Below, piece after piece: positions 29,754 through 50,776 of a stretch of DNA of 64,000 nt. Within the stretch, counting starts at the first letter, position 1; every line of letters begins with the position of its first letter. The DNA is from Sphingomonadales bacterium (lineage in GTDB: Bacteria > Pseudomonadota > Alphaproteobacteria > Sphingomonadales > Sphingomonadaceae): the NCBI GenBank assembly GCA_027486895.1, contig JAIXOE010000053.1, positions 1 through 64,000 on the forward strand, in the 5' to 3' direction. Under the pieces are notes generated by a model. That model did no database searches, had not been told where the DNA came from, and saw only the letters and a program-made list of their open reading frames with translations. The position numbers were made by a program, and so were the translations under genes.

Positions 29754-29767
29754 TGGGTAGTTTCCGA
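29754..29767 (+). promoter_or_regulatory. Island motif, site 1 (TGGGTAGTTTCCGA)
   Basis: 106 nt before the cupin ATG, same strand. The downstream sequence offers TTGCAG, 17 nt, GATAGC as a promoter, with the hexamer beginning 26 nt after the motif. Identical to sites at 45298 and 50763. Confidence 0.65.
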
Positions 29768-29873
29768 ACCTTGCAGGTTCCTTGGCGAAGCAGGATAGCT
29801 TTTCTGCGCACGACAGCTTTTTGCCAACATGGCACTCGAGCATCGTTCAAACGCCGTCTTGAGGAAATGAAAC

Positions 29874-30353
29874 ATGGACCCCAGCTTCGCCAGAATCTTA
29901 GATATTGGCCCACAGCCGCAATCGTTTAACATTGAACGCGCCACTGAAGACAATAGCAACTATCGCGCGGTTGCATGGAGCGGACGGTATCTGCAGGTGA
30001 CACTGATGTCGATTCCGGTCGGCGGCGATATAGGCCTTGAGGCCCACCCTGAAACCGATCAGTTTCTGCGCCTTGAGAAGGGCAAGGGCCGAGTGCAGAT
30101 GGGCGCAGCTAAGGATGATCTCACTTTTTCTAAGGACGTTTCAGACGGTTGGTGCGTCCTTGTACCAGCGGGAACTTGGCACAACATTTCCAACACTGGC
30201 TCTAGCCCCATGCAAATATACACGATCTACGCGCCTGCGCATCACAAGCCCCAAAAAGTTCAGGCAACGCAGTCATTAGCCGAAAGCGACGGGGACGATG
30301 AGCCCGCGGCTTGGTCAGTCCAACCGCACCATGAATCCGACGAGCACGGGTGA
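29874..30353 (+). CDS. Cupin-domain protein
   Basis: 159 residues with one cupin barrel: the first motif is around IGLEAHPETDQFLRLEKGKG, the second around WCVLVPAGTWHNISNTG. Potential metal ligands (His in EAHPE, Glu/Gln, His in TWHN) are present. The C-terminal 35 residues are acidic and look disordered. GAGGAAATGAAAC precedes the ATG. Single-domain cupins of this sort bind a metal and act as isomerases, oxygenases or sensors; none can be chosen here. It carries the first upstream copy of the island motif and converges on the giant kinase gene. Confidence 0.8.
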   Translation: MDPSFARILDIGPQPQSFNIERATEDNSNYRAVAWSGRYLQVTLMSIPVGGDIGLEAHPETDQFLRLEKGKGRVQMGAAKDDLTFSKDVSDGWCVLVPAGTWHNISNTGSSPMQIYTIYAPAHHKPQKVQATQSLAESDGDDEPAAWSVQPHHESDEHG

Positions 30354-30373
30354 CGCGATAGACACAATTGCAA

Positions 30374-33300
30374 TTATTTCTCCGCAACCGCACCGGTTGC
30401 AGCCAAGGCAAGGCGAGCCAGCGCCGGAAGCGATTTGGTTCCGGTTTTTTTCATGATCGACGCCCGGTGGTTTTCGACGGTGCGTTGACTGATGCCCAGG
30501 TCAGCCGCAATATTTTTGCTGGGATGGCCAGCCAGCACCATCTCCATGACCTGATGCTGACGCTTAGTCAGTCCCTTAAGATGCAATTTGGCGTCGGCCT
30601 GCCAATCGAGCAGCTTTGCCTCATCGCGCGACAGTTCCAGCGCACGGTCGATGCTGGCGAGGAGGTCCTTCCAGCGAACGGGCTTTTCGATAAAATCGAT
30701 CGCACCCACTTTCATGGCCTCAACGGCCATGGGTACTGCGCTGCTGCCGGTAATCATGATCGCCGGCAAATGATATCCTGCAGACTTCAACTGACGGAGC
30801 AGTTCAATCCCGTCGATGCCCGGGAGATATGCATCTATCAGCAGACACGCTTCACCGCCGGGGCGGTAGGCGGCAAGAAAGGCCTCGCAGTCGCCGAAAT
30901 CTTCTACCGTTCTGCCATCGGCTTCAAGCAGTTCGCGCAAGGAGTGACGCACCTCGCTATCATCGTCGACGATATAGATCGTCGCGGCTCCGTCGGTTTG
31001 GTGTTTGTCCACGGCAGGTTCCTGCGCGAGTAGCTGGTTGATTGCCTTTAATAGCGCCTCGCGTTTCACCGGCTTGTTCAATTGCACGCAATTGTCAGCC
31101 GCAACGGCGCGCAATGTGGTCGTCGAGATATCGCCAGTCAGGATGACAACTGGAAAACCCTTGCCCATTGTGTTGCGGATCCGCTCGGCCAGTTGAAGGC
31201 CATTTAATGCGCCGGGCAAATTATAGTCTGCCAGCACCAAATCGGGCTGGATTGTTTTGGCCGCGATCATTTCCAAAGCGCTATGGGAATCTCCGGTCAC
31301 CGTTGTGCGATAGCCTGCATCTTTGAGCAATTGGTCGAGCAGATCGCGGAGATCAGGATCATCGTCGACGATCAGAATGGTTTGGGCTCCGGCAACGGGC
31401 GCTGGAGTGTGGGGAGCCTCAATCTCTGCGACTACTTTTGGCGCCGTGAACTTCGCTTTGGGGTCTTTCAGGGCCACATCAATCGAAAAGACAGATCCCC
31501 GGCTGGGCAGCGAACGGACGCCCACTTTATGCCCAAGCAAAGCGCCAAGGCGTTGCACAATGGACAGGCCAAGGCCCAACCCCAGACTTCGTTCGCGGGC
31601 TGCATTGTCGATCTGGTGATATTCTTCGAAGATCGCATCGAGTTGCGACGCAGCGATCCCGACGCCGGTGTCCCAGACTTCGATCCGCAAAACATCGTCA
31701 TGCTGTCGGCAGCCGAGCAGTATTTTACCACGTTTGGTGTATTTGAGGGCATTGGAAACAAGGTTGCGCAACATCTGTTCGATCATAAGCGGATCGCTAT
31801 GGATAATGCAGCTGCTGCGCACAAACCGGAGATCCAGCTTTTGCGCGTGCGCCTGTTCGGTGAACTCGTTGCGCACCCGCTCAACAAGGTCGCCGACCAC
31901 GAAATCGACTGGTTCGGCTCGGACCACTCCTGCTTCGATCTGATTGATGTCGAGCATGGTGTTGAGCATCCCCGACATCGTCGTGAGCGTTTGCTCAAGT
32001 CGCCCCAGCAAGTCTTGTGCGCCGGGATCTTTCACCTTCGCTGCCAGCAATCCCTGCAAAAGAGCCAGTGACTGAAGGGGTTGTCGCAAGTCATGGCTAG
32101 CCGCTGCGAGGAAGCGCGATTTGGCAAGGTTGGCTTGCTCGGCATCGCGCTTGGCGGCTTCAAGAGCGGCGCGCGAGATCTTTTTTTCGGTAATGTCGGT
32201 GAAGGTGATGACCACCCCTTCAACACCATCCGCGTCGGTGCGGTAGGGCAAAATGTGACGCATGAACCAGCTGTCACCGGGAACCTCGACCTCGCAGTCA
32301 TGCGCCATGCCGTCGGCCAGCACCGCTTGCGCGTCCTGCGCCAGCATAGGATCAACCGATAGTGCGCGCAGGTCCGCCAACGGCCGCCCGACATCCCCGG
32401 GTATCAGGTTGAACAGCTTTTTGGTTTCAGGGGTAAAAAACCGGATTTTGAGATCAACGTCGAGAAATAACGTGGCGACTTTCGTGCTGTAGAGCACGTT
32501 CTGCAAATCGTTCGACGTCGTGCGCTGACGTTCAAGTGTTTCCTGAAGCTGGCCATTGAGCGCGGTCAGCTCCTCATTGAGCGACTGCAGCTCTTCCTTG
32601 GACGTCAACAATTCCTCATTCGCCGACTGATACTCCTCATTGACCGACAGTGCCTCTTCGTTGACGGCGCGATGTTCTTCTTCGGACAGTTCGAGATCAT
32701 GCATCGCGGCCGACAAATCGGTCCGTGTGGTCTCTAGTTCGTGCTGAAGAGCGGCGACGAGGTCCTCATCCTGCTCGGCTGCCTGTGCGCTTAGCCCGTT
32801 CGTCCGACCATGCCGATCGACAAAGCTGACCAATATCAATTCTTCGGTCTGGTGCACAATCAGGCGGATATCGAGATCGAATGGAACGGCCCGGCCGTCA
32901 TACTGCGCTTGGCCTCCCGCTGTAACCAGATGAGGCGTCTCGCTTGTGACTTTTCCAATTGCAGCGCGCAGCTTGTTGCGCAACCCGGGCTTTGCCATCG
33001 CCAACACGTCATGCGTGGTATAGCCGGGCGCTATACGCAGATAGCGTTCGGTCGGACCCATTGAGTATAGGCATTCATGGGCTCGATTGATGATCACCGC
33101 TGCGGGCGCAAGGTTGTCCAGAACGACGCGCCGGCAAAGGTCGGCAAGGGCCGGCTCCGGTTCTATATTCGAAGCGGTTTTCTTCCGCGCAGGCATACGT
33201 ACGCCGTCACGCGTATTGCCCGAGAACAGCAGCGCTGCGGCGCGGTTCTTGCCCATGCGACGATAAATCCGTTCGGATTTTGCAATGGGTTTGAACTGGC

Positions 33301-34732
33301 CTTCAACATGGCCAACCGTTTCTGATGTACCTAGAAAGAGTATGCCATCTTTTTGCAGGGCGAAATGGAACAGTGCAATCACCTTGGCTTGCGCTTCGGG
33401 TCCCAAGTAGATCAGTACATTTCGGCATGATATGAAATCGAGCTTCGAGAAGGGCGGGTCGGCCAGCATATCTTGAATGGTAAAAACGATGGCGGATCGC
33501 AGTTCGGGGCCAACGGCATATCCGTGCTCCTGCTTGACGAAAAACCGCGCCAGTCGTTCGGGTGAAATATCCGAAGCTATGGTGTCTGGATAATGTCCTT
33601 CGCGCGCCGTTGCCACTGCATCCGGATCCACGTCAGAGGCAAAAACGGAAAGTTTGATATCGCGCTTCGCGAATGCGATTGCTTCGGAAAAAACTATCGC
33701 CAGCGAATACGCCTCTTCACCCGAACTACACCCCGCAACCCAGATACGCAGCGGCGTGTCTGCGCTGTGTAATCGCACGATATCCGGTACGATCGTCGTT
33801 CCAAGCAGTTCAAAAACACCCGGGTCGCGGAAAAAACTGGTGACGTTGATCAAAAGGTCGGTGGCAAGCAAATTCAGCTCAACGGGGTCATGCTGGATCA
33901 CCTTCAAATACCGCTCCATCTCGGTTGTCGGTATCGATGCTAGCGCCATCCGCCGTTCTATCCGTCTTTGGAGCGTGCCCATTTTGTAGAGCGCGAAATT
34001 ATGTGCCGTGTTCTGGCGCAGATAATCGATAATTCTTGGCAAAATATCGCCGGAGGCTGGTGCAGGCAGACGCTCTGGCTCGGAACTCAAAGCGTTGGCA
34101 TGCGTCAACAAGGCTGCTGACATAGTTGCGACGGGCAATACAGCATCGGCAAAACCGCTTGCGACCGCACTTTGCGGCATGCCGTCATAGTCTGCTTCTG
34201 CGGGGTCCTGAACGAGGACAAAGCCGCCCTTGCCATGAACCGCGTTGATGCCCTGCGTCCCGTCATATCCCGTGCCCGAGAGAATGATAGCAAAGGCGAG
34301 GCTACCCAGTTCGTTCGCCATCGATTCAAACAGGAAATCAACAGGCATTCGGGCACCGTGCGGTGCGGAGGGCTTGAAAAGTTGCAACGCCCCTGCCGCA
34401 ATCGACAGATAGACACCGGCCGGGATGACGTAGATGTGATCGCGTTCCACGATCATGCCGTCGGCGGCTTGCAAAACAGGCATTTCGGTGTGCTCGGCGA
34501 GCAATTGGCCCATCAGGCTTTCATGCGTTGGGTCTAGATGTTGGACGACAATATAACCCATGCCTGCGTCGCCTGGTATCGCTTTAATCAGTTTGGTTAG
34601 GGCCTCAAGACCGCCGGCTGATGCGCCAATACCAACAATTGGAAAATCAGCGAGATGCTTAGGCGGCCCACGCGCCAACATCGCGGGACTGGTCACAATG
34701 GGCGCAGAAGAAACAAGCTCTTTTTCCGACAT
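30374..34732 (-). CDS. Giant CheB-CheR-PAS-histidine kinase-REC-REC-LuxR hybrid regulator
   Basis: About 1452 residues. In order: CheB methylesterase with its Ser-His-Asp set (VGIGASAGG, VVQHLDPTHES, LSGTGYDGTQG), about residues 28-215; CheR methyltransferase (WVAGCSSGEEAYSLAI, FISCRNVLIYL), about 225-490; PAS-like region; a coiled coil rich in NEEL/LNEEL repeats, about 660-745; PAS; HisKA (AAASHDLRQPLQS); HATPase (NLVSNALKYT, DTGVGI, LGLGLSIVQ); REC1 (LIVDDDPDLR, LADYNLPG); REC2 (YIVDDDSEVR, LIDAYLPG); and a C-terminal LuxR helix-turn-helix (LTKRQHQVMEM, ISQRTVENHRASI). All key residues seem present. ATG 34732 has GGGAAGG upstream; ATG 34810 is possible. A soluble complete phosphorelay ending in a DNA-binding domain; no membrane helix seen. 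Confidence 0.88.
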   Translation of the reverse strand: MSEKELVSSAPIVTSPAMLARGPPKHLADFPIVGIGASAGGLEALTKLIKAIPGDAGMGYIVVQHLDPTHESLMGQLLAEHTEMPVLQAADGMIVERDHIYVIPAGVYLSIAAGALQLFKPSAPHGARMPVDFLFESMANELGSLAFAIILSGTGYDGTQGINAVHGKGGFVLVQDPAEADYDGMPQSAVASGFADAVLPVATMSAALLTHANALSSEPERLPAPASGDILPRIIDYLRQNTAHNFALYKMGTLQRRIERRMALASIPTTEMERYLKVIQHDPVELNLLATDLLINVTSFFRDPGVFELLGTTIVPDIVRLHSADTPLRIWVAGCSSGEEAYSLAIVFSEAIAFAKRDIKLSVFASDVDPDAVATAREGHYPDTIASDISPERLARFFVKQEHGYAVGPELRSAIVFTIQDMLADPPFSKLDFISCRNVLIYLGPEAQAKVIALFHFALQKDGILFLGTSETVGHVEGQFKPIAKSERIYRRMGKNRAAALLFSGNTRDGVRMPARKKTASNIEPEPALADLCRRVVLDNLAPAAVIINRAHECLYSMGPTERYLRIAPGYTTHDVLAMAKPGLRNKLRAAIGKVTSETPHLVTAGGQAQYDGRAVPFDLDIRLIVHQTEELILVSFVDRHGRTNGLSAQAAEQDEDLVAALQHELETTRTDLSAAMHDLELSEEEHRAVNEEALSVNEEYQSANEELLTSKEELQSLNEELTALNGQLQETLERQRTTSNDLQNVLYSTKVATLFLDVDLKIRFFTPETKKLFNLIPGDVGRPLADLRALSVDPMLAQDAQAVLADGMAHDCEVEVPGDSWFMRHILPYRTDADGVEGVVITFTDITEKKISRAALEAAKRDAEQANLAKSRFLAAASHDLRQPLQSLALLQGLLAAKVKDPGAQDLLGRLEQTLTTMSGMLNTMLDINQIEAGVVRAEPVDFVVGDLVERVRNEFTEQAHAQKLDLRFVRSSCIIHSDPLMIEQMLRNLVSNALKYTKRGKILLGCRQHDDVLRIEVWDTGVGIAASQLDAIFEEYHQIDNAARERSLGLGLGLSIVQRLGALLGHKVGVRSLPSRGSVFSIDVALKDPKAKFTAPKVVAEIEAPHTPAPVAGAQTILIVDDDPDLRDLLDQLLKDAGYRTTVTGDSHSALEMIAAKTIQPDLVLADYNLPGALNGLQLAERIRNTMGKGFPVVILTGDISTTTLRAVAADNCVQLNKPVKREALLKAINQLLAQEPAVDKHQTDGAATIYIVDDDSEVRHSLRELLEADGRTVEDFGDCEAFLAAYRPGGEACLLIDAYLPGIDGIELLRQLKSAGYHLPAIMITGSSAVPMAVEAMKVGAIDFIEKPVRWKDLLASIDRALELSRDEAKLLDWQADAKLHLKGLTKRQHQVMEMVLAGHPSKNIAADLGISQRTVENHRASIMKKTGTKSLPALARLALAATGAVAEK

Positions 34733-34822
34733 TCGGCAAGCCTTCCCAAACGGGGCTGCCACGACTCCGACAGAGAAGAGGACGTTAACAGCTTTGGCTG
34801 CTTTTGTCATCTTATCCCGTCA

Positions 34823-34836
34823 TAGGTGATTTCCGA
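34823..34836 (+). promoter_or_regulatory. Island motif, weak site (TAGGTGATTTCCGA)
   Basis: 11 of 14 bases match TGGGTAGTTTCCGA. It points toward the response regulator gene, 68 nt before its start, with TATCGG beginning 26 nt later. It lies in the gap between the divergent giant kinase and this regulator. Confidence 0.4.
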
Positions 34837-34904
34837 TTCTGCACTGCGCTGAATAATGCATCTATCGGGTTCAGGCATTGTCATGCGGGAAGGGGAATAG
34901 CGGG

Positions 34905-35270
34905 TTGAAGAAGATTGTGCGTGTTTTGATTGTCGAGAACGAACCCATCATTGCGATGTTGCTTAAGGACGTCGTCGAATCTCTGGGCCATCTGGTGTGC
35001 GATATTGTGGCAACCGAATCCGAGGCAGTCGCAATCGCGCTTGCAAGCGGACCCAACCTGATGATTGTCGATGCCGGACTGCGCGATGGAAGCGGCGTTA
35101 CTGCAATGGAAACCATCCTCAAGCAACGGGCTATGCCCCATATCTTTGTAACCGGAGACAAGCGCAGAGTGCAGCAGATGGCCCCCGACGCGACAATTCT
35201 CGAAAAGCCATTTTTCATTCCCGATCTGGTGCGCGCGATCGAAGAAGCGATGGCAAACAGCGCAAGATAG
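34905..35270 (+). CDS. Single-domain response regulator
   Basis: 121 residues, a receiver domain only: phospho-acceptor Asp56 in LMIVDAGLRDG, conserved Thr in FVTGD, and Lys in ILEKPF. No output domain follows. No ATG occurs at the beginning of the frame; TTG 34905 has GGAAGGGG about 10 nt upstream and starts KKIVRVLIVENEP, so it is preferred to TTG 34878. It is divergent from the giant kinase gene with about 170 bp between starts, so it may be a phosphate sink or shuttle for that kinase. Confidence 0.83.
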   Translation: MKKIVRVLIVENEPIIAMLLKDVVESLGHLVCDIVATESEAVAIALASGPNLMIVDAGLRDGSGVTAMETILKQRAMPHIFVTGDKRRVQQMAPDATILEKPFFIPDLVRAIEEAMANSAR

Positions 35271-35279
35271 TTATGCTCA

Positions 35280-35645
35280 CTAATGCACGACACGGCCCAC
35301 ATCCGTGACCCGAAACAGCCACATGGCAAACGCGAAAACAGCACCAGCTGCATATATGGAGCCAAAAATCTGCTTGTTATAGCGCGCAAGCCATGAGGGG
35401 AGGTAGATGTCAAAATTAGGCGCTCTACTCTCGGTAAAGCGCGCAGCAAGTGGCGTCATCGGGCAATGCCATTGGTTCAAGGCCAAAATTGCCACTTCGA
35501 TCGCCACTATCCCAACGAACAAGGCGGCCAAGCCATCATCGCCACGCCATGACATGACCGGAATGGCGAAAATGCACAGCACAAAGAAGATCCAGACGAG
35601 CGTATGCACCGTCTTGATCCCCTGAAGTGCGATATTTGTTGGCAT
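35280..35645 (-). CDS. Small membrane protein of unknown function
   Basis: 121 residues with three to four hydrophobic segments (VHTLVWIFFVLCIFAIPVM, FVGIVAIEVAILALN, IYAAGAVFAFAMWLF). A conserved-looking loop NQWHCPMTPLAARFTESR followed by FDIYLPSWLARYNK lies between helices 2 and 3. This resembles small uncharacterised membrane proteins of the DUF2784 sort, but I am not sure of the family. It is the third gene of a minus-strand set after the BON and coiled-coil genes. Confidence 0.65.
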   Translation of the reverse strand: MPTNIALQGIKTVHTLVWIFFVLCIFAIPVMSWRGDDGLAALFVGIVAIEVAILALNQWHCPMTPLAARFTESRAPNFDIYLPSWLARYNKQIFGSIYAAGAVFAFAMWLFRVTDVGRVVH

Positions 35646-35659
35646 CGGCGACTGCGTGC

Positions 35660-36064
35660 CTAAGTCGTTTGTGGATGCTCGGCTTCATGCCGCGCGACGC
35701 TTGCGGACAGCATCGCTTTTTCCGCCTGATCGACGCCCGATAGCGCCACAACCATCGCAGCTTCGGCATAGCGTTCTGAACGGTCTGCGCGCGCCTGCAA
35801 CATTTTGGTGTCTAGTTTGGTCTTCCAACCAGCCACCGTTTCCTTGCTATCTTCAACCCAAGCAGCGATTTCGGCATTGGCCTCGCTCAGCTTGCCATTT
35901 GCCTTGTGTGCTTCGTCTTCGAGGTTATCGACATGCTTGCGGATGGTTTTGGCGGCATGCTCCGCCTGTTTTTCAGTTGCGACCTTCAGTGCGTCAAGGC
36001 GCTGTTCAACCTCATGCAATTTATGCTGCATCCGCTTGGTGAATTTCGACATTGAACTTGTCAT
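35660..36064 (-). CDS. Coiled-coil protein of unknown function
   Basis: 134 residues, highly charged and predicted helical (KFTKRMQHKLHEVEQRLDAL, then KVATEKQAEHAAKTIRKHVD), with no cysteine and no signal peptide. ATG 36064 is favoured over 36103 because AGAGGAAA lies 6 nt before it. It resembles small stress-associated helical proteins found beside BON-domain genes, but no named family was recognised. It lies after the BON gene, from which it is separated by a large hairpin (36092-36147). Confidence 0.65.
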   Translation of the reverse strand: MTSSMSKFTKRMQHKLHEVEQRLDALKVATEKQAEHAAKTIRKHVDNLEDEAHKANGKLSEANAEIAAWVEDSKETVAGWKTKLDTKMLQARADRSERYAEAAMVVALSGVDQAEKAMLSASVARHEAEHPQTT

Positions 36065-36091
36065 GAAAATTTCCTCTTCATTGGAGTTGAA

Positions 36092-36152: not shown

Positions 36153-36803
36153 TCAGGCGACGATCAGGTCGTTTTCAACCGACGTCGCACCATGTGCTGC
36201 CCAGGCAGTAGAGCCCGCTCTTTGTCGTTCCATCCAGGAATCAACAGTTCCAGTCAGCTTTACGCGGCCATCCGATGCGCTGACATGAACGCGTTCCGGT
36301 TGGAAGAAGACCGAACGGTGGAGCGCGTGCTGGATATCGTCCTGCAGATGGGCGGTATCAACGCGTGCTTTGATCGTGATCTGGTTGGATAAACCGACCA
36401 CACCAGTCAGGTGACGGACTTCGCGTTCGGCTGCTTCCTTCTGGAAATGCCATTCTACTTCGCCAGTCAGTGTGACCCAGCCTTTCTCTACCTTGACCTT
36501 AATGGCATCGCCAGGCGTGGTCGTGTCCCACGCGAGGCGGTTGATAGCCGCGGTGGCGATATCGGTATCCGACCGCTTGATTTCGAAGGGCAGCTTGACG
36601 TCGATTTCCTCGGCAATTGCTTTGACGCCTTTGACACGGCCAGCCGCCATTTCAGCGGCATGCTTTTCGCCGTAACTTGCGACCGTCCCCGTCAATGTGA
36701 CGGTGCCGTTATCGGCGGCAACGCCAATGTGAGAGGCGGTAACTCTGGGTTCCCAATTCAGTTCTGCCAGAACAGCTTTTTGCAGTTGGTCGTCATGTGA
36801 CAT
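36153..36803 (-). CDS. Triple BON-domain protein
   Basis: 216 residues made of three BON repeats, each with the GxVxLxGxV core: GTVTLTGTVASYGEK (about 33-47), GWVTLTGEVEWHFQK (about 107-121) and GRVKLTGTVDSWMER (about 178-192). No signal peptide is visible, unlike periplasmic OsmY, so it is probably cytoplasmic. BON domains are associated with phospholipid or envelope binding and with osmotic or general stress. CGAGGAAA precedes the ATG. The island motif at 36870-36883 lies 66 nt upstream. Confidence 0.85.
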   Translation of the reverse strand: MSHDDQLQKAVLAELNWEPRVTASHIGVAADNGTVTLTGTVASYGEKHAAEMAAGRVKGVKAIAEEIDVKLPFEIKRSDTDIATAAINRLAWDTTTPGDAIKVKVEKGWVTLTGEVEWHFQKEAAEREVRHLTGVVGLSNQITIKARVDTAHLQDDIQHALHRSVFFQPERVHVSASDGRVKLTGTVDSWMERQRAGSTAWAAHGATSVENDLIVA

Positions 36804-36869
36804 GATATTTTCCTCGTGGGGTGGGGGAGTTCTTGCATTATGCTCTCATGCGTAGCTCTATCGGAAGAG

Positions 36870-36883
36870 TCGGAATCTACGCA
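36870..36883 (-). promoter_or_regulatory. Island motif, site 2 (TGCGTAGATTCCGA, minus strand)
   Basis: 66 nt before the BON ATG, oriented with the gene. CATAAT begins 27 nt after the motif and could be the -10 element. Identical to the site at 50683-50696. Confidence 0.65.
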
Positions 36884-37725: not shown

Positions 37726-38285
37726 CAGGGCATTGCCAGATTTTTTTGCACCAGCACGAGCGTTGAATCTCCCGGATAGGATGATGCAACAAACCCCATC
37801 TCGCGCTCCATATCGATCGCTGCATGGCTGCTGCGATCCTCGATCGACTGGATAGTGGTCAGCCCTTTGGCCTTTGCATATGCGGTCACGTGGTGAAGCA
37901 AGTCCCAACTGACACCTTTGCCCTTATACTCGGGCCGAATGACGATCGCGACTTCGCCTGTTTTCATTTCGGCGTCGCAGGCGAGCATCGCGGTCGCAAT
38001 GATCTCTGCCTCGTCATCGATAAATGCCAGAAAATTCTCGGTCTGGCGGTGATCAATGTCGGTCATCGCAACAAGCCTGTCATGGCCCACAGTCCTGATG
38101 CCGCTTAGGAAACGGAATCGAAGGTCATCAGGCGTGACATGGCTAAAAAATGCGCCAAGTGCTTCTTCGTCCAAAGGCACTGCCGGGCGGACGGAAAAGC
38201 GGAAACCTGTCCTCGTCGTTAGAATTTCAGGTGCAATGGCAACAACTGTGGGCTTTTTAGGCGCGATGTTAGAAGCTGAAGTCAT
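37725..38285 (-). CDS. GNAT-family N-acetyltransferase
   Basis: 186 residues. The GNAT fold is seen as FSVRPAVPLDEEALGAFF, then VAIVIRPEYKGKGVSWDLLHHV (acetyl-CoA pyrophosphate loop, R/Q-x-x-G-x-G/A form) and a C-terminal HAAIDMEREMGF helix-strand. It resembles the acyltransferase half of protein lysine acetylases of the Pat type, but lacks the nucleotide-binding half. Start and stop overlap with both neighbours (ATGA and TGATG), so the three genes are translationally coupled. Substrate unknown. Confidence 0.82.
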   Translation of the reverse strand: MTSASNIAPKKPTVVAIAPEILTTRTGFRFSVRPAVPLDEEALGAFFSHVTPDDLRFRFLSGIRTVGHDRLVAMTDIDHRQTENFLAFIDDEAEIIATAMLACDAEMKTGEVAIVIRPEYKGKGVSWDLLHHVTAYAKAKGLTTIQSIEDRSSHAAIDMEREMGFVASSYPGDSTLVLVQKNLAMP

Positions 38286-38827
38286 TCTGCTAGCGCGGGT
38301 TCGCGCATTTCTGCATCCGAATAAATGTCCACGCGCGTCGGGTTCGTTCTGTCCAAAATATCCTTTGCGCGATTTATTTCGGCTTCGCTGCCATGCGCCA
38401 TCACCAAAAAATTGTCCGCCGTGATATCGACCTCATATTGGATCACGCTGTCCTTCTTGATACCAAGGCCATATAGTGCTGCAGCAAGCGCGCTCACTCC
38501 GCCTACGACAACGGCGCCCTCAATGGCGGCGAGCACGGCTGCTGCAAGGGTGCCGAGAACCACAATTTGGCCGACAACCGGAATGACGATGAACAGACCG
38601 CCAAAAAACAAACCCCATAGACCGCCCCAGAAAGCGCCTTGCTTACCCCAGAGTTTGATGCGGTCGCCGTTGCTGTAGAAGCCGACAACTTTCTCATCGG
38701 TATGATAGCCCTTTCCGACAATGCTGAGATTTTTCATTTCAAACCCGGCTTTGCCCAGCTGTGCTATTGCAGCTTCGGCCCGTGGATGTTCGTCGAATAC
38801 GGCAATGGCAGTGTATGAAGATGACAT
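38282..38827 (-). CDS. General stress protein 17M-like membrane-associated protein
   Basis: 181 residues. The N-terminal TAIAVFDEHPRAEAAIAQL and KNLSIVGKGYH form the domain shared with Bacillus stress protein 17M. A central glycine/alanine-rich double hydrophobic hairpin (LWGLFFGGLFIVIPVVGQIV; LGTLAAAVLAAIEGAVVVGG) and a C-terminal alpha/beta segment (FLVMAHGSEAEINRAKDIL) follow. ATG 38827 has AAGGA upstream. First gene of an operon with GNAT and DUF6544 genes; a degenerate island motif lies 67 nt upstream. Probably a stress-induced inner-membrane protein. Confidence 0.78.
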   Translation of the reverse strand: MSSSYTAIAVFDEHPRAEAAIAQLGKAGFEMKNLSIVGKGYHTDEKVVGFYSNGDRIKLWGKQGAFWGGLWGLFFGGLFIVIPVVGQIVVLGTLAAAVLAAIEGAVVVGGVSALAAALYGLGIKKDSVIQYEVDITADNFLVMAHGSEAEINRAKDILDRTNPTRVDIYSDAEMREPALAE

Positions 38828-38894
38828 GTCGGGGTCCTTTTTGGCGCGGAATAGAACAGCAACTCTATCGCGATTTGCGAGATAACCGGTAGGG

Positions 38895-38908
38895 ACGGAA
38901 AACACCTA
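38895..38908 (-). promoter_or_regulatory. Island motif, weakest site (TAGGTGTTTTCCGT, minus strand)
   Basis: 10 of 14 bases match. It is oriented toward the 17M-like gene, 67 nt before its ATG, with GATAGA beginning 25 nt downstream. On its own this would not be convincing; the shared orientation and spacing support it. Confidence 0.35.
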
Positions 38909-38943: not shown

Positions 38944-38957
38944 TGGGTAGATTCCGA
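38944..38957 (+). promoter_or_regulatory. Island motif, site 3 (TGGGTAGATTCCGA)
   Basis: 55 nt before the ATG at 39013 and oriented with it. CATTCT begins 27 nt after the motif. Confidence 0.65.
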
Positions 38958-39012
38958 GGCTACCATCGAAGCAGCTGCTCCTGCCATTCTATGGTTTCAA
39001 AGGAGACTTATC

Positions 39013-39468
39013 ATGCACGTTTCGAAGATGATCACATTGCTCGCATTCGCTGCCACAGTCGGAAGCGCACCCGTTGTTGCCAAATCTGTTGCTGCCAAGG
39101 ATGTGCCGAGCGCAACCGCCTCGTTTACGGGCGAGACAGTAGCCGTTGGCGTGGGCTTCACCTGGGGTAAGGGTGTTTTGACTTTCAAGGGCAAGACCTA
39201 TCCATTCAGAGTAGACGGGCTTAGCGCTATCGGCGTGGGCGTGAGCAAAATTTCGGGAACCGGCACCGTCTACCATTTAAAAACCGCAGCAGATTTTGGT
39301 GGCACTTATGCCGCTGCAGGCGGCGGTGGTTCGATAGGACCTCTTGGCGAGGGAAGCGCATCACTTCGGAACGAGAAAGGCGTGGTCATTGAATTTCGCG
39401 CCAAGGAAAAGGGCGTATCGATCAATCTGGATCTGAGCGGCGTTCACATCGCGCTGACCCCCGCATAA
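39013..39468 (+). CDS. Secreted protein, DUF1134/EipA-like
   Basis: 151 residues with a signal peptide (MHVSKMITLLAFAATVGSAP, cleavage near VVAKS). The mature part is rich in glycine and beta-strand: VAVGVGFTWGKGVLTFKG, VGVSKISGTGTVYHLK and a glycine run FGGTYAAAGGGGSIG. This resembles periplasmic DUF1134/YSC84-like folds, some of which bind lipids and guard the envelope, but the family call is uncertain. AAAGGAGA precedes the ATG. It is a single gene with the island motif upstream and a terminator-like hairpin downstream. Confidence 0.65.
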   Translation: MHVSKMITLLAFAATVGSAPVVAKSVAAKDVPSATASFTGETVAVGVGFTWGKGVLTFKGKTYPFRVDGLSAIGVGVSKISGTGTVYHLKTAADFGGTYAAAGGGGSIGPLGEGSASLRNEKGVVIEFRAKEKGVSINLDLSGVHIALTPA

Positions 39469-41254: not shown

Positions 41255-41716
41255 TCAGCGGCATCGTGCACCATTGCGACCGATGGACCGGCCGATGGCT
41301 GCGCCGCCTCCTGCGCCAAGCAGCGTGCCGAGGGTTTGCGAATCTCCTGGAGCTATTATGTTACCGAGAATGCCGCCAGCAATGGCACCCAGAATGAGTC
41401 CCGTTGTGCCGTCATTGCGCCGACAATAATAGCGGCCGTCAGTGCCGCGATAGACGCGGTCGTTGCGCTGTAACGTGCGCTCCCGATATCTCGGGTTATT
41501 GCTATAATATCGTCCGGCATCGTAACTGCCATAGGCAGGGTCTGGGCGATTATGGTCATATTGCTGATAGGCGTATCCCGGCTCTGCATAGCCCGAATCC
41601 ACACAGCCAGAGACAAGAGCTGCACACAACACACCGACAGACAGCGCGCATACGCGAACACTCCGGCCGTTGCTGTGGTTGGCCAAGTATGATGGTTGCT
41701 GAATTGCCTGGGGCAT
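41255..41716 (-). CDS. Glycine-zipper outer-membrane lipoprotein
   Basis: 153 residues. Signal peptide with lipobox (VGVLCAALVSGC, cysteine near residue 38), a tyrosine-rich middle (GYAEPGYAYQQYDHN; NPRYRERTLQRNDRVYRG), and a C-terminal glycine zipper (LILGAIAGGILGNIIAPG; LLGAGGGAAIGRSIG) as in 17-kDa surface antigens. Such proteins associate with the outer membrane. AAAGGA lies before the ATG. It heads the operon with the host-attachment and Acg genes; an island motif lies 95 nt upstream. Confidence 0.82.
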   Translation of the reverse strand: MPQAIQQPSYLANHSNGRSVRVCALSVGVLCAALVSGCVDSGYAEPGYAYQQYDHNRPDPAYGSYDAGRYYSNNPRYRERTLQRNDRVYRGTDGRYYCRRNDGTTGLILGAIAGGILGNIIAPGDSQTLGTLLGAGGGAAIGRSIGRNGARCR

Positions 41717-41811
41717 GTTGCGGTCCTTTCCAATAAGTTACGGAATGTCCGCTATCGGACAGTTCGACGGTCGAACCGCTTTGTGCGCTTCTATTTACGG
41801 TTGACGCCAGC

Positions 41812-41825
41812 TTCGGAATATACGC
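41812..41825 (-). promoter_or_regulatory. Island motif, site 4 (TGCGTATATTCCGA, minus strand)
   Basis: 95 nt before the glycine-zipper lipoprotein ATG, oriented with it; one base different from the sites at 36870 and 50683. The TA-rich element is poorer here: GCACAA at 26 nt, GTAAAT at 14 nt. Confidence 0.55.
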
Positions 41826-41888
41826 AGCTTAGTTGCCTCTATGGCCAGATTGGCAGCTTCGGCTTGCTGGCACTTGAACCCGCAATAT

Positions 41889-45140: not shown

Positions 45141-45237
45141 GCGGTCACCGATAAGTCAGGAAAATTTTGCGTCACGTGCAATCGATCCTCCTGCAATCAT
45201 TCTGCATTTTGGATCGGTAGGCGCGAGAAAAACAGGT

Positions 45238-45251
45238 TCGGGAAATACCTA
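45238..45251 (-). promoter_or_regulatory. Island motif, weak site (TAGGTATTTCCCGA, minus strand)
   Basis: 11 of 14 bases match. It points toward the HlyD-ABC operon, 97 nt before its ATG, with CAAAAT beginning about 26-27 nt later. Confidence 0.4.
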
Positions 45252-45297
45252 CCGAAACGAGAACTGTGGAAATGCCATCTCTCTGTTCAAATGCTTG

Positions 45298-45311
45298 TGG
45301 GTAGTTTCCGA
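45298..45311 (+). promoter_or_regulatory. Island motif, site 5 (TGGGTAGTTTCCGA)
   Basis: 113 nt before the carbamoyltransferase ATG, oriented with it, with TAAACC beginning 26 nt after the motif. Together with the site at 45238 it occupies the gap between two divergent operons. Confidence 0.65.
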
Positions 45312-45424
45312 TTCTATTTCGGCTCTCTGACAGCACCTAAACCTTTGCACATCGCCGAACCCGTTGGCGGTCAACGTAAAATCCAAGGCAGCCGGATTGG
45401 TTTCTGGCCGGAGTCATTTTTGTC

Positions 45425-46531
45425 ATGCAATTGCTGTCCCAGAATACACTGCACAATGGCTCGGATGCGATGCTCATCGCCAATTTCCCAGTACCCTCAA
45501 TTTACGCGCCTCCGCTCCGGCATTTCATTGATACGCAAGATTGTGCGCAATCGGAACTGCTCCATATTTTCGAACTGGTCCGTCTATTGAAAGATGCCGA
45601 TCAAGTCGGCGCGTGCCCAAAGCTTCTCGCCGGGGCATCACTCGGCATGATCTTTGAGGAGCCGTCCACCCGAACACGCATTTCGTTCGAAGTGGCGATG
45701 ACCAAGCTCGGCGGCCATGCGCTCTATCTGCGTCCCGGCGAAATTCATCTCGGTGCCCGCGAAAGCGTTGAAGACACTGCCAAAGTCATATCCAGTATGG
45801 TCGATGTTATCGAGGCGCGCACGCTGAAACATCAAACCGTTCTCGATCTTGCCAAATATTCCAGCGTGCCCGTGATCAATGGTTTGACCGACTACAATCA
45901 TCCGACTCAGGCCGTGTGCGATGTGTTCACGATGCTTGAGCATTGTAGGGCTGATAAGGCGATGGGCGATGTGCACGTCACCTTTGTGGGCGATGCGACT
46001 AATGTCTGTTCGTCGCTGATGATGATCTGCACTCAGATGGGAATGCACTTCACGCACGCTGCGCCAAAGCGTTATCAAGCGCCTGCCGCATGGCAAGCGA
46101 TCGCACAGGCCAATATCAAGAAGTATGGCGGATCATTGACGGTTACCGAAGATGTCAAAGATGCCGTCAAGGACGCCGACTTCATTTATACCGACTTATG
46201 GTGGTGGATGGGTCAGGAAGCCGAGATTCCCGACCGAACGGCGGCTTTCATGCCGAAATATCAGGTCAATGACGCCTTGCTAGATGCTGCGCCCGTTGGC
46301 GTCAAATTCATGCACTGCCTGCCAGCATCCCGCGGTGTGGAAGTAACCGACGCGGTCCTTGATGGTCCGCGCTCAATCGCATTCGATCAGGCAGAGAACC
46401 GGCTTCACACCGAAAAGGCGCTGCTTGTCCACTTCGTTACGCCACATCTCAAGCACCCGTCCCGCGACCTGCTGGCGTGGCACGCGGCCAAAGTCGCCGA
46501 CTTTGTTGACCGCGACGGAGACGATTCATGA
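45425..46531 (+). CDS. Putrescine-type carbamoyltransferase
   Basis: 368 residues, transcarbamylase fold. Carbamoyl-phosphate motif EEPSTRTRISFEVAM, then GLTDYNHPTQAVCDVFTMLEH, and HCLPASRG are intact. The ornithine-binding SMG loop is replaced: the protein reads YTDLWWWMGQEAE, so ornithine is unlikely to be the substrate. Neighbouring agmatine deiminase and carbamate kinase point to carbamoylputrescine phosphorolysis to putrescine and carbamoyl phosphate. It is slightly longer than usual (310-345) because of an N-terminal extension; ATG 45425 has only GGAG at 11 nt, and a later start such as the ATG at residue 17 is possible. First gene of a four-gene operon. Confidence 0.85.
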   Translation: MQLLSQNTLHNGSDAMLIANFPVPSIYAPPLRHFIDTQDCAQSELLHIFELVRLLKDADQVGACPKLLAGASLGMIFEEPSTRTRISFEVAMTKLGGHALYLRPGEIHLGARESVEDTAKVISSMVDVIEARTLKHQTVLDLAKYSSVPVINGLTDYNHPTQAVCDVFTMLEHCRADKAMGDVHVTFVGDATNVCSSLMMICTQMGMHFTHAAPKRYQAPAAWQAIAQANIKKYGGSLTVTEDVKDAVKDADFIYTDLWWWMGQEAEIPDRTAAFMPKYQVNDALLDAAPVGVKFMHCLPASRGVEVTDAVLDGPRSIAFDQAENRLHTEKALLVHFVTPHLKHPSRDLLAWHAAKVADFVDRDGDDS

Positions 46532-47955
46532 CCGTGGCGACTTCCGCCGTCCCGTTACCTGTCACGACGGACAAGAAACCCCGTTTCGTGAAGGTCTTGC
46601 GCGGTTTGGACATGACGCTGTTCACGGTCTGCGCTATTCTGGTGATCGACCAGCTCGCCGCATCGGCATCTATCGGCGTTCAGTCGATATTCTGGTGGGT
46701 GTTCACACTTGTCCTATTCTTCATTCCTTACGGTCTCATCACGTCCGAGCTGGGTAGCTCGCTGCCGCAGGAAGGCGGGATCTATGCATGGGTGCGCCGT
46801 GCCTTTGGCCCGCTTTGGGCCGGCCGGACAGCCTGGTTGTGGTGGGTCAACGTCGCCTTCTGGATGCCTTCGGTGTACATATTGTTCGCGGGTATATTGG
46901 CACAGCTGACCTTCCCCGAGATGAGCCTGCCGAGCAAGATGGTCATAGCGTTCGGCCTCATCTGGCTGACGGTCGGGGTCAACGTCATCACACTTGAGGT
47001 CAGCAAATGGGTGCCAAATATCGGCGCTATCTTCAAAGTCATCATCATGCTCGCCATCGGCATTGGCGGGATCGCTTATGCCATGCAATATGGCGTCGCC
47101 AATCCGTTTACGCTGAAAGCGATGGCGCCAAGCTGGGGTGTCAGTCTCGCCTTCCTGCCCGTCGTGCTATACAATTTTCTGGGCTTTGAACTCATGTCCG
47201 GCGCGGGCGAGGAGATGAAGAACCCCGCCCGAGACGTGCCAAGATCCATCCTCATTTCCGGACTGCTGATTTCATTCTTCTATATCTTCGCGACGCTCGG
47301 CATGCTGCTTGCGCTGCCAACGGCGGATATTGGCTTAATCGATGGATTGATCGATACGTTCCGCCGTCTTTTCGGAAGCTCGCAGGCTGGAGCAGCTATT
47401 GTAACGGTTCTTGCGAGCATGGCGCTTTATACACTCATCGCGAATATGGTCACCTGGACCATCGGCGCAAACCGTTCGGCTGCCGAAGCTGCCCAGAAAG
47501 GCGATTTGCCAGCCATCTTTGCCAAGATGCATCCCAAATTTAAAACACCGACAAGCTCAGCGGTTCTTGGTGGCTTGATCGGCACGGTTGTCCTAATCAT
47601 TTACGGGCTTTTGGCAAAGTCTGCCGAAGACCTGTTTTGGTCGACATTCGCCTTTTCATCAGTGGTGTTCCTGCTGCCCTATTTCCTGCTGTTCGCGTCG
47701 TTCCTGAAACTGCGCCGGACGGAGCCCGATCTGGTCCGCCCCTACAAGGTTCCCGGCGGCTATCCGGTTGCGGTTGTCCTCAGCCTCATCTGCATGGCGT
47801 TCATCGCCCAAGGGATCATCTTCCTGATCTACAAGCCCGGTGATTTCACGCCTGCTTATGCCTTTTCGATCCTCGGTGGCGTGCTGGTAACCATCGTCAT
47901 TGGCGAAATTCTCGTCCGCGCCTCGATCAGGCGCGCCCAACTTAAGAAAGTCTGA
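46528..47955 (+). CDS. APC-family transporter, probable agmatine/putrescine exchanger
   Basis: 475 residues, about 12 helices. It begins with the APC core [20 protein letters not shown], then [24 protein letters not shown] as the conserved loop, and [24 protein letters not shown] as the typical helix 6 broken region. The start overlaps the carbamoyltransferase stop (ATGA), and the agmatine deiminase gene follows at 4 bp. By position it should import agmatine and export putrescine, as AguD does in lactic acid bacteria; sequence alone shows only an amino acid/polyamine carrier. Confidence 0.85.
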
Positions 47956-47959
47956 AACC

Positions 47960-49090
47960 ATGTCGCAGCTATTGACCACGACCCCGCGTACTGACGGATT
48001 CCGCATGCCTGCCGAATGGGAACCGCATACCGGGTGCTGGATGCTTTGGCCCGAACGGTCAGACAATTGGCGCGGCGGTGCCAAGCCGGCGCAACATGCG
48101 TTCGCCGCTGTTGCTGCAGCCATTGCGGCAACAGAGCCAGTCAGCGTCTGCGTGTCGCCGGCGCAATTTCTTGTCGCTCGCGCCCTGTTGCCCGATGCTG
48201 TCCGCCTTGTCGAAATGACCAGTAACGACAGCTGGATCCGCGATTGCGGCCCGACCTTTGTCATCAATGACCATGGCGAAATGCGCGGAATCGATTGGAA
48301 GTTTAACGCCTGGGGCGGGCTAGAGGATGGGCTGTATTTCCCCTGGGATCAGGATGATCTGGTGGGCGAAAAGGTGATCGAACTGGAACGGGCGGGACGC
48401 TATGCGCCGGATTTCATCCTTGAAGGGGGATCAATTGATGTCGATGGTGAAGGTACTGTAATCGTTACCGAACAGTGTCTCCTCAATCATGACCGCAATC
48501 CTGATATGAACCGGGAGCAGATTGAAGCCAATTTGCGCGACTATCTTGGCTGCGAAAAGGTGATCTGGCTCGAAAATGGCGTCTATCTTGACGAAACCAA
48601 AGGGCACACCGATAATTTCTGCCGGTTCGTGGCGCCAGGCGAAGTCATTCTGACTTGGACGGACGACGTCGATGATCCGCAATTTGAAATTTCTACCGCT
48701 GCGATGAAGCGGCTCGCGACCGCAACCGATGCACGCGGCCGTATGCTGAAGGTCCACAAGCTGCTCCAGCCGACGCCTATCCTGATTACGGCCGATGAAG
48801 CCGCTGGCGTCGATCATGTTGAAGGGACGTTACCACGCAGCGAGGGTGATCGCCTCGCGGCCTCTTACGTGAATTTCTATATCGGAAATGGTGTTGTTGT
48901 GATGCCCGCGTTCGACGACCCTATGGACGGCCCCGCACAACAATGCTTGGCGAAGCTGTTCCCATCGCGCCGGATCGTGGCGGTTCCGGGACGGGAAATC
49001 TTGCTGGGCGGCGGCAATGTGCATTGTATCACCCAGCAACAGCCAAAAGCCGCGTCTGCGCCCTCATCGGCCATGCGTTCTGCCGCCTGA
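47960..49090 (+). CDS. aguA: Agmatine deiminase
   Basis: 376 residues of the guanidine-group-modifying (PPAD) fold. The opening [20 protein letters not shown] is the family hallmark. Asp/Glu and His residues are in [12 protein letters not shown] and [10 protein letters not shown], and the catalytic cysteine lies in [15 protein letters not shown] near the C-terminus. It hydrolyses agmatine to N-carbamoylputrescine and ammonia. ATG 47960 lies 4 bp after the transporter stop; the longer frame overlaps that gene. In this operon its product feeds the carbamoyltransferase. Confidence 0.92.
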
Positions 49091-49093
49091 CCA

Positions 49094-50011
49094 GTGCGCA
49101 TCGTGATCGCGATAGGTGGCAACGCCCTACTGAAACGTGGTGAGCCACTTACTGCCGAAAATCAGGCGCGCAACATGGCCATGTCCGCCGTTGGCCTTGC
49201 GCAAATATGCAAGGGGCACCAAGTCGCGATCGTCCACGGCAATGGACCGCAGGTAGGCTTGCTGGCGCTCCAATCGTCAGCTTACAAAGCGACCAAATTA
49301 TACCCGCTGGATGTCCTTGGCGCTGAATCGCAGGGGATGATCGGCTATGTCATCGCTCAAGCAATGCGCGCGGAGATTCCGGCACGCGAAATCGTCTCGA
49401 TCGTCACCCGCACAATCGTTGATGGCCATGACCCGGCGTTTGACCGCCCGACAAAGCCGATCGGGCCGATTTACACTGCCGCTGAAGTGGCAGAATTGTC
49501 GCTCACGTGCGACTGGGCTTTTGCTGCCGACGGCAATCATATGCGGCGAGTCGTTCCGTCGCCCGAACCAGCGGAAATCGTTGAGCTGGCAGCTATCGAA
49601 CGCCTCATGGCTGCCGATGTTCTGACGATCTGCGCAGGCGGAGGCGGCATTCCCGTGGTTCAGGTCGAGCCCACAGGCCATAAAGGAAAATTGGTAGGCG
49701 TCGAAGCGGTCATCGACAAGGATCTTGGCGCCGCGCTGCTGGCGACCAGACTGGCAGCAGACCGGCTGATCATTCTTACAGATGTCGACGGCGTTTTTGC
49801 TGACTGGGGTGGTCCAGCTCAGAACCTGCTCGGCAAGGTGAGCGTCGCTGAATTGAGGGCTTTGTCGTTCGCTGAAGGATCGATGGCACCAAAAGTCGAA
49901 GCAGCCTGCCGCTTTGCCACCGAAACTGGCAACCCCGTCGCGATCGGTAATTTACAGACAGCCGCAGCCGTTATGGCCGGCAGCGCAGGAACGCAGATTG
50001 GCCTGACATAA
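49094..50011 (+). CDS. arcC: Carbamate kinase
   Basis: 305 residues, amino acid kinase fold: RIVIAIGGNALLKRGEPLTA at the start, HGNGPQVGLLALQSSAYK, CAGGGGIPVV, and EAVIDKDLGAALLATRLAAD for ATP binding. It makes ATP from carbamoyl phosphate and ADP. The start is GTG 49094, 3 bp after the deiminase stop. It completes the agmatine deiminase pathway, giving one ATP per agmatine. arcC is also used in arginine deiminase operons, but no arginine deiminase is present here. Confidence 0.92.
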   Translation: MRIVIAIGGNALLKRGEPLTAENQARNMAMSAVGLAQICKGHQVAIVHGNGPQVGLLALQSSAYKATKLYPLDVLGAESQGMIGYVIAQAMRAEIPAREIVSIVTRTIVDGHDPAFDRPTKPIGPIYTAAEVAELSLTCDWAFAADGNHMRRVVPSPEPAEIVELAAIERLMAADVLTICAGGGGIPVVQVEPTGHKGKLVGVEAVIDKDLGAALLATRLAADRLIILTDVDGVFADWGGPAQNLLGKVSVAELRALSFAEGSMAPKVEAACRFATETGNPVAIGNLQTAAAVMAGSAGTQIGLT

Positions 50012-50051
50012 TCGGTTGTTGTTGTCTCATTGCCTTAGCAATATCACCTTG

Positions 50052-50612
50052 TCAGTTCGGGGTTACTGCGACCATCACTTCGTTGCGACGAAGAATCCAT
50101 GGTGTCCAGGGCGGATTGTAGCGCGCCACTGATGATGGGCCGACTGGCGACATGCCTCGCGCTTTGATAATGTCGAGAAGCTTGGTTTTCATCTCGGCTA
50201 CCTTCGTTTCGCCAGCCAAGCCCGAAAAGCGCAGCACTGCAAATCGCGCAGGCGGCAGACGCCTAATCGTCACGGCCTTGTTATTTGGTTCAGGCAGATC
50301 GGCAAGCGCAAATTTGGCAGGCATACTAAAACGGATTAGCCAGTCTTTTTTGCCCTCGATCTGTGTCACCGGAGCGGTCATGGCAAGCTTTTCGCCCTTG
50401 GCGATATTGGTAACCGGAGCCGTCATTGCGATCTTGCTGCGCTTGGCATTGCCGCCGAAGATATAGCCCGCAAGCAGTCCAAAGCCTTCGCGCGCTGCTT
50501 GTTGCTGGTCCCCGGTAACGGTAACTTCAGCCACTATGGACGTGGCATAATCTCTGACCTCGAAGGCGCCATCCTTCAGGACAAGGTCAAACTTTGGCTC
50601 TTCAATCGCCAT
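50052..50612 (-). CDS. SOUL-type haem-binding protein
   Basis: 186 residues without signal peptide. SOUL features: EEPKFDLVLKDGAFEVRDYA at the N-terminus, FGLLAGYIFGGNAKRSKIAM, the repeated KIAMTAPVTNI/KLAMTAPVTQI pair, and PPWTPWILRRNEVMV at the C-terminus. The SOUL/HEBP family binds haem or other tetrapyrroles in the cytoplasm. It converges on the carbamate kinase gene. An exact island motif lies 70 nt upstream. Confidence 0.88.
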   Translation of the reverse strand: MAIEEPKFDLVLKDGAFEVRDYATSIVAEVTVTGDQQQAAREGFGLLAGYIFGGNAKRSKIAMTAPVTNIAKGEKLAMTAPVTQIEGKKDWLIRFSMPAKFALADLPEPNNKAVTIRRLPPARFAVLRFSGLAGETKVAEMKTKLLDIIKARGMSPVGPSSVARYNPPWTPWILRRNEVMVAVTPN

Positions 50613-50682
50613 GGAGCGGGCCCTTTCTAGGCAATGCTATAGACTGGATAACTATGCCGCCCATCTCAAGCGAAATGCAGGT

Positions 50683-50696
50683 TCGGAATCTACGCA
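50683..50696 (-). promoter_or_regulatory. Island motif, site 6 (TGCGTAGATTCCGA, minus strand)
   Basis: 70 nt before the SOUL ATG, oriented with it. CATAGT begins 26 nt after the motif and gives a good -10. Identical to the site at 36870-36883. Confidence 0.65.
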
Positions 50697-50762
50697 ACAA
50701 GCACAAAAACGGAGAGTTTCACTCAATATCGATCTCATTTTCATCCGAGACTTCCTGATAGA

Positions 50763-50776
50763 TGGGTAGTTTCCGA
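50763..50776 (+). promoter_or_regulatory. Island motif, site 7 (TGGGTAGTTTCCGA)
   Basis: 160 nt before the chosen ATPase ATG, oriented with it; TACAGC begins 26 nt after the motif. Identical to sites at 29754 and 45298. Confidence 0.6.

Follow-up and report, generated by a model that had tools for sequence, protein, structure and literature searches.

What recognizes a short DNA motif that stands before gene after gene in a single bacterial island, and does that recognition amount to a regulon? The question is raised by a stretch of 64,000 nucleotides from a Sphingomonadales bacterium (positions 1 to 64,000 of contig JAIXOE010000053.1, termed 'the window' throughout), in which the 14-bp motif TGSGTAGWTTCCGA is found in six exact copies, at 29754(+), 36870(-), 38944(+), 45298(+), 50683(-) and 50763(+), and in a seventh copy with one mismatch. 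An earlier note on this DNA proposed that the copies define a single regulon packed in one locus and served by a class II activator, a view that is supported by counts across the genome, by the placement of the sites and by tests of promoter layout. The best reading is a one-protein, FixJ-type phosphorelay with a dedicated, mobile regulon of stress and energy genes, in which the regulator would be a giant kinase encoded within the island (P0001; 1478 amino acids, 30374..34810, minus strand). That the GerE domain at the end of P0001 binds these sites and activates transcription as a class II factor is a prediction to which we assign a probability of about 0.85.

The list of copies that had been drawn up earlier was largely sustained. 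All six exact copies were recovered, the one given as 41812(-) actually lies at 41813 and carries one mismatch (TGCGTATATTCCGA), and the weaker copies differ from the motif at three positions in the case of 34823(+) and 45238(-), while that at 38895(-) falls outside the set with three or fewer mismatches and was recovered by a longer matrix. At this tolerance the 14-mer occurs 20 times in the window against 14.5 expected, a number reached in 9 of 100 shuffles and not significant; because this is the level of chance, the signal beyond chance sits in the close, extended copies. In the whole host genome (2.87 Mb), exact TRSGTAGWTTCCGA occurs six times, always in the island, and the reversed control pattern matches once. 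A longer pattern, TRNGTRNNTTCCGANNCT, has eight of its ten exact matches within the island (binomial 4e-16) and two of its five one-mismatch matches, with 11 matches for the reversed control at up to one mismatch; the 12-mer core GGTAGWTTCCGA at the same tolerance gave 25 matches against 41 for its control, which is no enrichment and is uninformative. Nearly all good sites in the host genome fall in the 21-kb island, and a genome-wide regulon in this host is ruled out by the location inside it of 10 of the 15 long-pattern matches at up to one mismatch. Chance as the origin of the motif is likewise ruled out, by the genome-wide counts of TRSGTAGWTTCCGA, by matrix scans of related loci, by gene placement and by a frozen test on plasmids.

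The same site recurs around relatives of the kinase in other genomes. A locus search provided 27 loci, among them 23 contigs that carry kinase relatives of 51-58% identity, almost all under an alphaproteobacterial label, and more relatives were drawn from further genomes. In the 23 kinase-centred contigs the matrix built from the window, prior to any iteration, gave 73 matches at 14 bits, as against none to two in five Markov shuffles and one with the reversed matrix. Removal of two duplicates from 64 loci left 62 (1.09 Mb, some partly overlapping), in which the iterated matrix found 154 matches against one reversed; 261 kb of loci without a full kinase held two matches, one of them in a locus (from genome G053) that had been chosen for its motif. 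Kinase-centred loci make up 42 of the 62 and hold 129 matches, with at least one in 34 of them and ten in the window; the rest consist of 14 loci fetched for an exact motif match (24 matches) and six flanks (one match). Because not all 62 loci are kinase-centred, the clean figures are the 119 sites in the 41 kinase-centred loci other than the window, at least one being present in 33 of these, together with the frozen test. In that test the fixed matrix was applied to 12 plasmid loci from another collection (H1, H2, H4, H6, H8, H10-H15 and H18, from 253 matched records), where it gave 54 matches against two reversed and at least one match in every locus; 40-mers in common with the training loci numbered five for one plasmid locus and none for eleven, two Methylocystis loci being close kin. 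Six sites of 30-32 bits were found on the plasmid of a betaproteobacterium, Caballeronia. The conservation of the site before similar kinds of genes elsewhere, which the earlier note had named as a test, was found, in kinase loci as well as in annotated plasmid loci. Kinase islands were seen on plasmids (L191-L202) of Sphingomonas, Methylocystis, Caballeronia, Polymorphobacter, Lichenicola, Novosphingobium, Asticcacaulis and others, several of them near transposases.

The placement of the sites was examined after four of the 154 matches, which had repeated surroundings, were dropped to leave 150 distinct sites. With genes called by codon usage, two of the 150 lie inside genes, compared with 78% of random places, and 131 are followed within 450 nt by a start on the same strand, compared with 19% of random places. 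A longest-ORF caller (open reading frame, ORF) had put 48 of the 150 inside ORFs (random, 84%) and 83 before a start, from -150 to 450 nt (random, 23%); it was replaced because, the DNA being high in GC, it chose long ORFs that are spurious. The plasmid records, counted by their annotation with the exception of L196 (no annotation, five sites) and with coding sequences (CDS) away from the sites omitted in some loci, give a similar picture independently, with 42 of 49 sites within 450 nt before a CDS and one inside a CDS. The abundance of matches inside genes that would have spoken against a regulon was thus not seen in the loci examined, where sites are rarely inside genes. Each copy in the window points towards the gene that follows it, as had been claimed, at distances from the called starts (by the codon-usage caller) of 120, 82, 80, 3, 69, 224, 111, 127, 84 and 282 nt; those of 3, 224 and 282 stem from uncertain starts, the latter two shrinking to 110 and 60 with other ORF starts, and a later ATG is the likelier start of the gene after the 38895 site.

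Positions downstream of the site, which were used neither in finding sites nor in training, are enriched for a -10 box of the form T41 A42 nnn T46. The hexamer TAnnnT starts at positions 40-42 after 82 of the 150 sites, compared with 0-7 of 150 at 13 shifted places, so that the TA-rich hexamer noted earlier at 25-27 nt downstream is real as a feature of the population. If transcription is taken to begin some 7 nt beyond the -10 box, the first position of the site would lie near -52 and the centre of its dyad (position 12) near -41, with the distal arm, C17 T18 R Y C, reaching into the -35 region. A class II promoter layout, with the site over the -35 and a -10 box at fixed spacing, is therefore supported as a prediction, with one amendment: the motif had been thought to end 3 nt before the -35 element, and the extended site enters that region. 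Such an overlap could also block polymerase, and a divergent site stands just upstream of the kinase gene (within 600 nt, opposite strand) in 32 of 47 cases, observations that would suit sites that mainly repress, or that are boundary or structural repeats; a fixed spacing to the -10 box in the same orientation is, however, the pattern of activation, and we regard repression or a structural role as very improbable. A site on the same strand as the kinase is found in 3 of 47 cases as opposed to those 32, and the kinase therefore seems usually to lack a class II site of its own, its divergent neighbour being driven instead. In the window that neighbour is a single-domain receiver (34905..35270, plus strand; Pfam Response_reg), a possible phosphate sink or feedback partner.

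Alignment of the sites extends them beyond the length first noted, with C17 and T18 conserved and R19, Y20 and C21 more weakly so, such that each copy is predicted to be a site of 21-22 bp, T R R G T A K W T T C C G A n n C T R Y C. The close copies in the window read GTAG(T/A)TTCCGA, except that one has GTATATTCCGA. Across the 150 sites an imperfect dyad is visible, with complementary letters at positions 6-18 (0.90), 7-17 (0.57), 10-14 (0.85) and 11-13 (0.97) and weaker values (0.09-0.49) at the other pairs. The earlier note could not match the motif to a known site. By its sequence it belongs with FixJ-class sites, a match best taken as a lead: its core GTAGTTTCC agrees at nine of ten letters with the consensus GTAGTTTCCC obtained for FixJ by systematic evolution of ligands by exponential enrichment (SELEX), the matching stretch being GTAGTTTCCG, in the portion of PMC4999443 that describes it. 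The same portion gives the fixK site of Sinorhizobium meliloti as TAAGTAATTTCCCTTA. FixJ sites there have in common with those described here the core, a receiver-GerE output and an imperfect dyad, and differ in bearing CCC(TTA) where CCGAnnCT is found here; FixJ is also described there as having few conserved targets, chiefly fixK, whereas several operons per locus are preceded by sites in the present system (PMC4999443, in part).

The domains of P0001, as identified with Pfam, run in the order CheB, CheR, a Glu-rich coil, PAS (PAS_10), HisKA, HATPase, receiver 1, receiver 2 and GerE. Its true start may lie further downstream, as the alignments of many relatives begin only around residue 40-58. 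Among solved chains, the last 208 residues best match full-length FixJ (5xso, E 1.2e-39), with a related response regulator, 1yio, just behind (E 2.1e-38) and DevR (3c3w) far poorer (E 1.6e-10); a receiver with its phospho-Asp followed by GerE places this end in the FixJ/NarL type. All 53 of the relatives compared retain the phospho-histidine, and 52 of 53 retain Asp1326 of the second receiver; the Ser (46/47), His (46/47) and Asp (45/47) of CheB are likewise kept, and the CheR residues examined are conserved in nearly all. GerE is the most conserved domain (mean identity 0.77). Because P0001 is encoded in the island and ends in a FixJ-like receiver and GerE, it is the natural candidate to bind the sites; the involvement of the kinase suggested in the earlier note is thereby supported, for the stronger reason that the protein has a FixJ-type DNA-binding domain of its own.

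Kinase and motif also occur together. Among 385 class-level genomes the extended motif is present in 15 (reversed control, 1), a kinase with the GerE end in 17 and both in 10, so that the motif is found in 10 of 17 genomes with the kinase and in 5 of 368 without it (Fisher 3e-12); the ten include the genome of the window, and without it the figure is 9 of 16. In a set of 61 genomes (its own and 60 relatives) a full-length kinase is found in G000, G016 and G042, and the exact motif in those three and G053. Six of the seven kinase genomes that lack an exact motif have matrix matches near the kinase, and one, G378, has none. Of the five genomes that have a motif and no full kinase, two encode a related GerE protein near their sites. 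That of G322 (L144; G322:C83, about 9820-10490) is short and coil-like at its N-terminus, and its GerE domain is 75% identical; it is encoded next to three sites, a receiver was not seen in it, and it is possibly a regulator without phosphorylation input. That of G126 (L148) is a PAS-kinase-receiver-GerE protein without CheB and CheR, whose gene shares a 20-kb stretch with five sites; a separate CheB-CheR relative lies elsewhere in the genome. Within the recognition helix, the alignment places Asn in P0001 where FixJ (5xso) has Val. Asn occupies this position (1447) in 44 of 52 relatives, and a site is present in 32 of 34 loci with Asn and 2 of 7 with another residue (41 loci). Three Acidiphilium contigs (L032, L033 and L035) share the Val of FixJ at this position (helix ISPRTVEVHRA) and lack a site in the vicinity; their kinases may use a different box, and as these contigs are short or overlapping the Asn/site count is soft.

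A separate regulator of NarL/FixJ or other type could instead travel with the kinase and bind the sites, the kinase merely signalling to it. Small GerE/LuxR-type proteins do occur in some islands (in G322, and by annotation in Sphingomonas paeninsulae, L191, and Methylocapsa, L201), and receiver genes are common beside sites. In the host, however, a GerE search returned eight matches, seven over the cut-off and one of those P0001, whose own domain is the only one in contig C33; identity to the P0001 end does not exceed 38% in the other host matches and is 29% in the longest one that spans receiver and GerE, so that no other close FixJ-like output is found there. Four relatives (G014, G019, G026 and G031) have FixJ-like proteins 37-41% identical to the kinase end and no exact motif. 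Together with the fact that GerE is the best conserved of the kinase domains, these findings make a separate binder unlikely, at odds of a little under one in ten, and favour P0001 itself.

Ten sites are found in the window; most of the genes that follow them were scanned with Pfam on their own, some with other start codons, and 35280-35645 lay outside the scan. The first (29754..29775, plus; exact 14-mer, 28.2 bits with the matrix) precedes a cupin gene (29874-30353), and the second (34823..34844, plus; 22.6 bits) lies divergently upstream of the kinase and before the receiver gene (34878/34905-35270). An exact copy at 36862..36883 (minus; 26.9 bits) stands before a BON gene (36153-36803) and its followers, a weak one at 38887..38908 (minus; 20.7 bits) before a YflT gene (general stress 17M-like, 38282-38905) and its followers, and another exact copy at 38944..38965 (plus; 29.3 bits) before 39013-39468, which has no Pfam family. 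The one-mismatch site (41805..41826, minus; 27.8 bits) precedes a glycine-zipper gene (41255-41716) followed by baeRF12/Host_attach and nitroreductase genes, and a weak site (45230..45251, minus; 20.9 bits) precedes an HlyD/MacB-type exporter operon (45140-41889). The exact copy at 45298..45319 (plus; 27.3 bits) heads an operon (45425-50011) for a carbamoyltransferase, a permease, an agmatine deiminase-type enzyme (PAD_porph) and an amino-acid kinase, and the last two exact copies precede a SOUL gene (50052-50612; site 50675..50696, minus; 26.3 bits) and a cation P-type ATPase (50823/51045-53486) with an AI-2E family gene (53507-54571; site 50763..50784, plus; 27.2 bits). Elsewhere in the window, subunits I and II of a cytochrome bd oxidase (17549-19980) follow a sulfate permease and a BLH-phosphatase/oxidoreductase gene, and the matrix scan gave no match before them.

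Similar kinds of genes follow the sites in other loci. Of 131 first genes after sites, 120 were scanned, ten window genes and one 2839-aa ORF being left out, and these include OmpA (13), PRC-barrel (11), receiver (10, of which at least one is the kinase itself, in L036), ferritin-like (4), DUF3309 (3), DUF3096 (3), LTXXQ (3) and BON (2) genes. Among 71 of 82 follower genes (11 window genes left out) are receivers, DUF3309 and CsbD (five each), KaiB and P-type ATPase (two each), a phosphoketolase and an acetate kinase; targets picked out by hand include phosphoketolase, aconitase, superoxide dismutase (SOD), KaiC, a fatty acid desaturase, a CHASE3 kinase and an ShlB-type transporter. A KaiC-type ATPase gene (L043, 9669-14039) follows a strong site. 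The Caballeronia island is close in kind to the window in gene content, with arginine deiminase, carbamoyltransferase, carbamate kinase, BON, universal stress, general stress and alcohol dehydrogenase genes, and its sites precede general stress, universal stress, BON, HAD phosphatase and hypothetical genes; those of Polymorphobacter precede an alternate F1F0 ATPase operon and an oleate hydratase. The target set reads as one for survival under energy or envelope stress. A variant FixLJ cascade that reports low oxygen through a haem PAS domain would concern the signal only and is compatible with P0001 as the binder. It would accord with the FixJ-class site and output, and with the anaerobic-type energy genes in or near the islands (arginine/agmatine pathway, phosphoketolase, acetate kinase); the sensor domains, on the other hand, are CheB, CheR and one PAS_10, and the families most often found among the targets are OmpA, PRC-barrel, receivers, ferritin-like, CsbD and DUF3309, so that an oxygen signal is possible and somewhat doubtful. 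As to fixK, the main target in FixLJ systems, no Crp/Fnr family is among the 25 families listed of 104 for the first genes, nor among the 25 listed of 67 for the followers.

Several observations weigh against P0001 as the regulator of these sites. Eight of the 42 kinase-centred loci have no site (L032, L033, L034, L035, L045, L047, L150 and L159, of which L032, L033 and L035 are the Acidiphilium contigs); L047 and L150 are among these and have the usual Asn helix, and A. cryptum has Ala at 1447 and two sites. Single motifs without a close GerE protein, the GerE proteins there being 38% identical or less, are found in G159, G220, G403 and G053, of which the first three, where GerE or receiver proteins are at most 39% identical to the query, may be chance occurrences. 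The -10 hexamers of the window itself are poor when taken one by one, and the arginine deiminase operon of Caballeronia has no site. Among the plasmids, the Rhizobium Y9 and Roseicitreum loci each have one site and one reversed-matrix match, which is at noise level by count. The total of 154 is partly circular, as 24 of those sites come from the 14 loci selected for the motif, and the loci partly overlap and are not all independent, for which reason the p-values are too small.

From the computed sites, their placement and -10 spacing, their co-occurrence with the kinase and the conservation of its residues, we infer that the protein binds DNA, that phosphate is transferred, that control is by activation and not by repression, and that the signal is one of stress or energy limitation. 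In the proposed sequence of events, P0001 would autophosphorylate at the HisKA histidine and hand the phosphate on to the second receiver of the same chain, upon which its GerE domain would bind the 21-22 bp site and contact RNA polymerase, in class II fashion, over a weak -35 and a TAnnnT -10; the targets in the island would be envelope, stress and arginine/agmatine-type ATP-yielding genes. As the same combination of kinase, sites and kinds of genes is seen in other proteobacteria, in many cases on plasmids, the module appears to travel with its targets. The coil between CheR and PAS (residues 691-768; mean identity 0.73, behind GerE alone among the stretches compared) carries Glu pairs at 725/726, 732/733, 739/740 and 746/747, that is, every seven residues, with each Glu conserved in at least 90% of relatives. 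This heptad spacing is that of chemoreceptor methylation helices. Because the pairs and the CheB and CheR residues are conserved, CheR and CheB might reversibly methylate the coil of P0001 itself and so set the gain of the kinase, with promoter output adapting to signal history, a suggestion that is offered tentatively.

Several known systems resemble parts of this one. FixLJ is alike in its histidine kinase and FixJ-like output; FixL and FixJ are separate proteins, in contrast to a single chain with CheB, CheR and two receivers, and the targets here are stress, envelope and energy genes. In the hybrid two-component systems of Bacteroides, kinase, receiver and DNA-binding domain also share one chain, with an AraC-type output and a periplasmic sensor in place of the GerE and CheB/CheR of P0001. 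The alphaproteobacterial EcfG general stress response includes similar types of genes, such as CsbD and PRC-barrel; an EcfG promoter is ruled out, as its consensus (GGAAC-N16/17-CGTT) is unlike the present site and spacing, an activator box with a TAnnnT -10. The DosR dormancy regulon resembles the present targets in its nitroreductase, P-type ATPase and universal stress genes; it differs in site, sensor architecture and phylum, and the DosR box is ruled out by that difference in site. DevR/DosR of Mycobacterium is, in the part of PMC3029386 that bears on it, a NarL-subfamily receiver-GerE regulator, like the output of P0001. FixJ sites and hybrid kinases are already known; among the open-access matches listed, no description appeared of the kinase-motif pair, nor of a single-chain regulator that unites CheB, CheR, kinase and FixJ parts and has an extended site and a mobile regulon of several operons dedicated to it.

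The plasmid records examined mostly annotate such kinases as 'chemotaxis protein CheB' or 'CheR family methyltransferase'. For this family of CheB-CheR hybrid kinases a precise site and promoter layout can now be proposed, and genome scans for the site could predict their targets. The regulator appears to spread with a pre-wired regulon, in Alphaproteobacteria and on at least one betaproteobacterial plasmid (Caballeronia), and the architecture of P0001 makes the idea of a methylation-adapted transcription factor testable.

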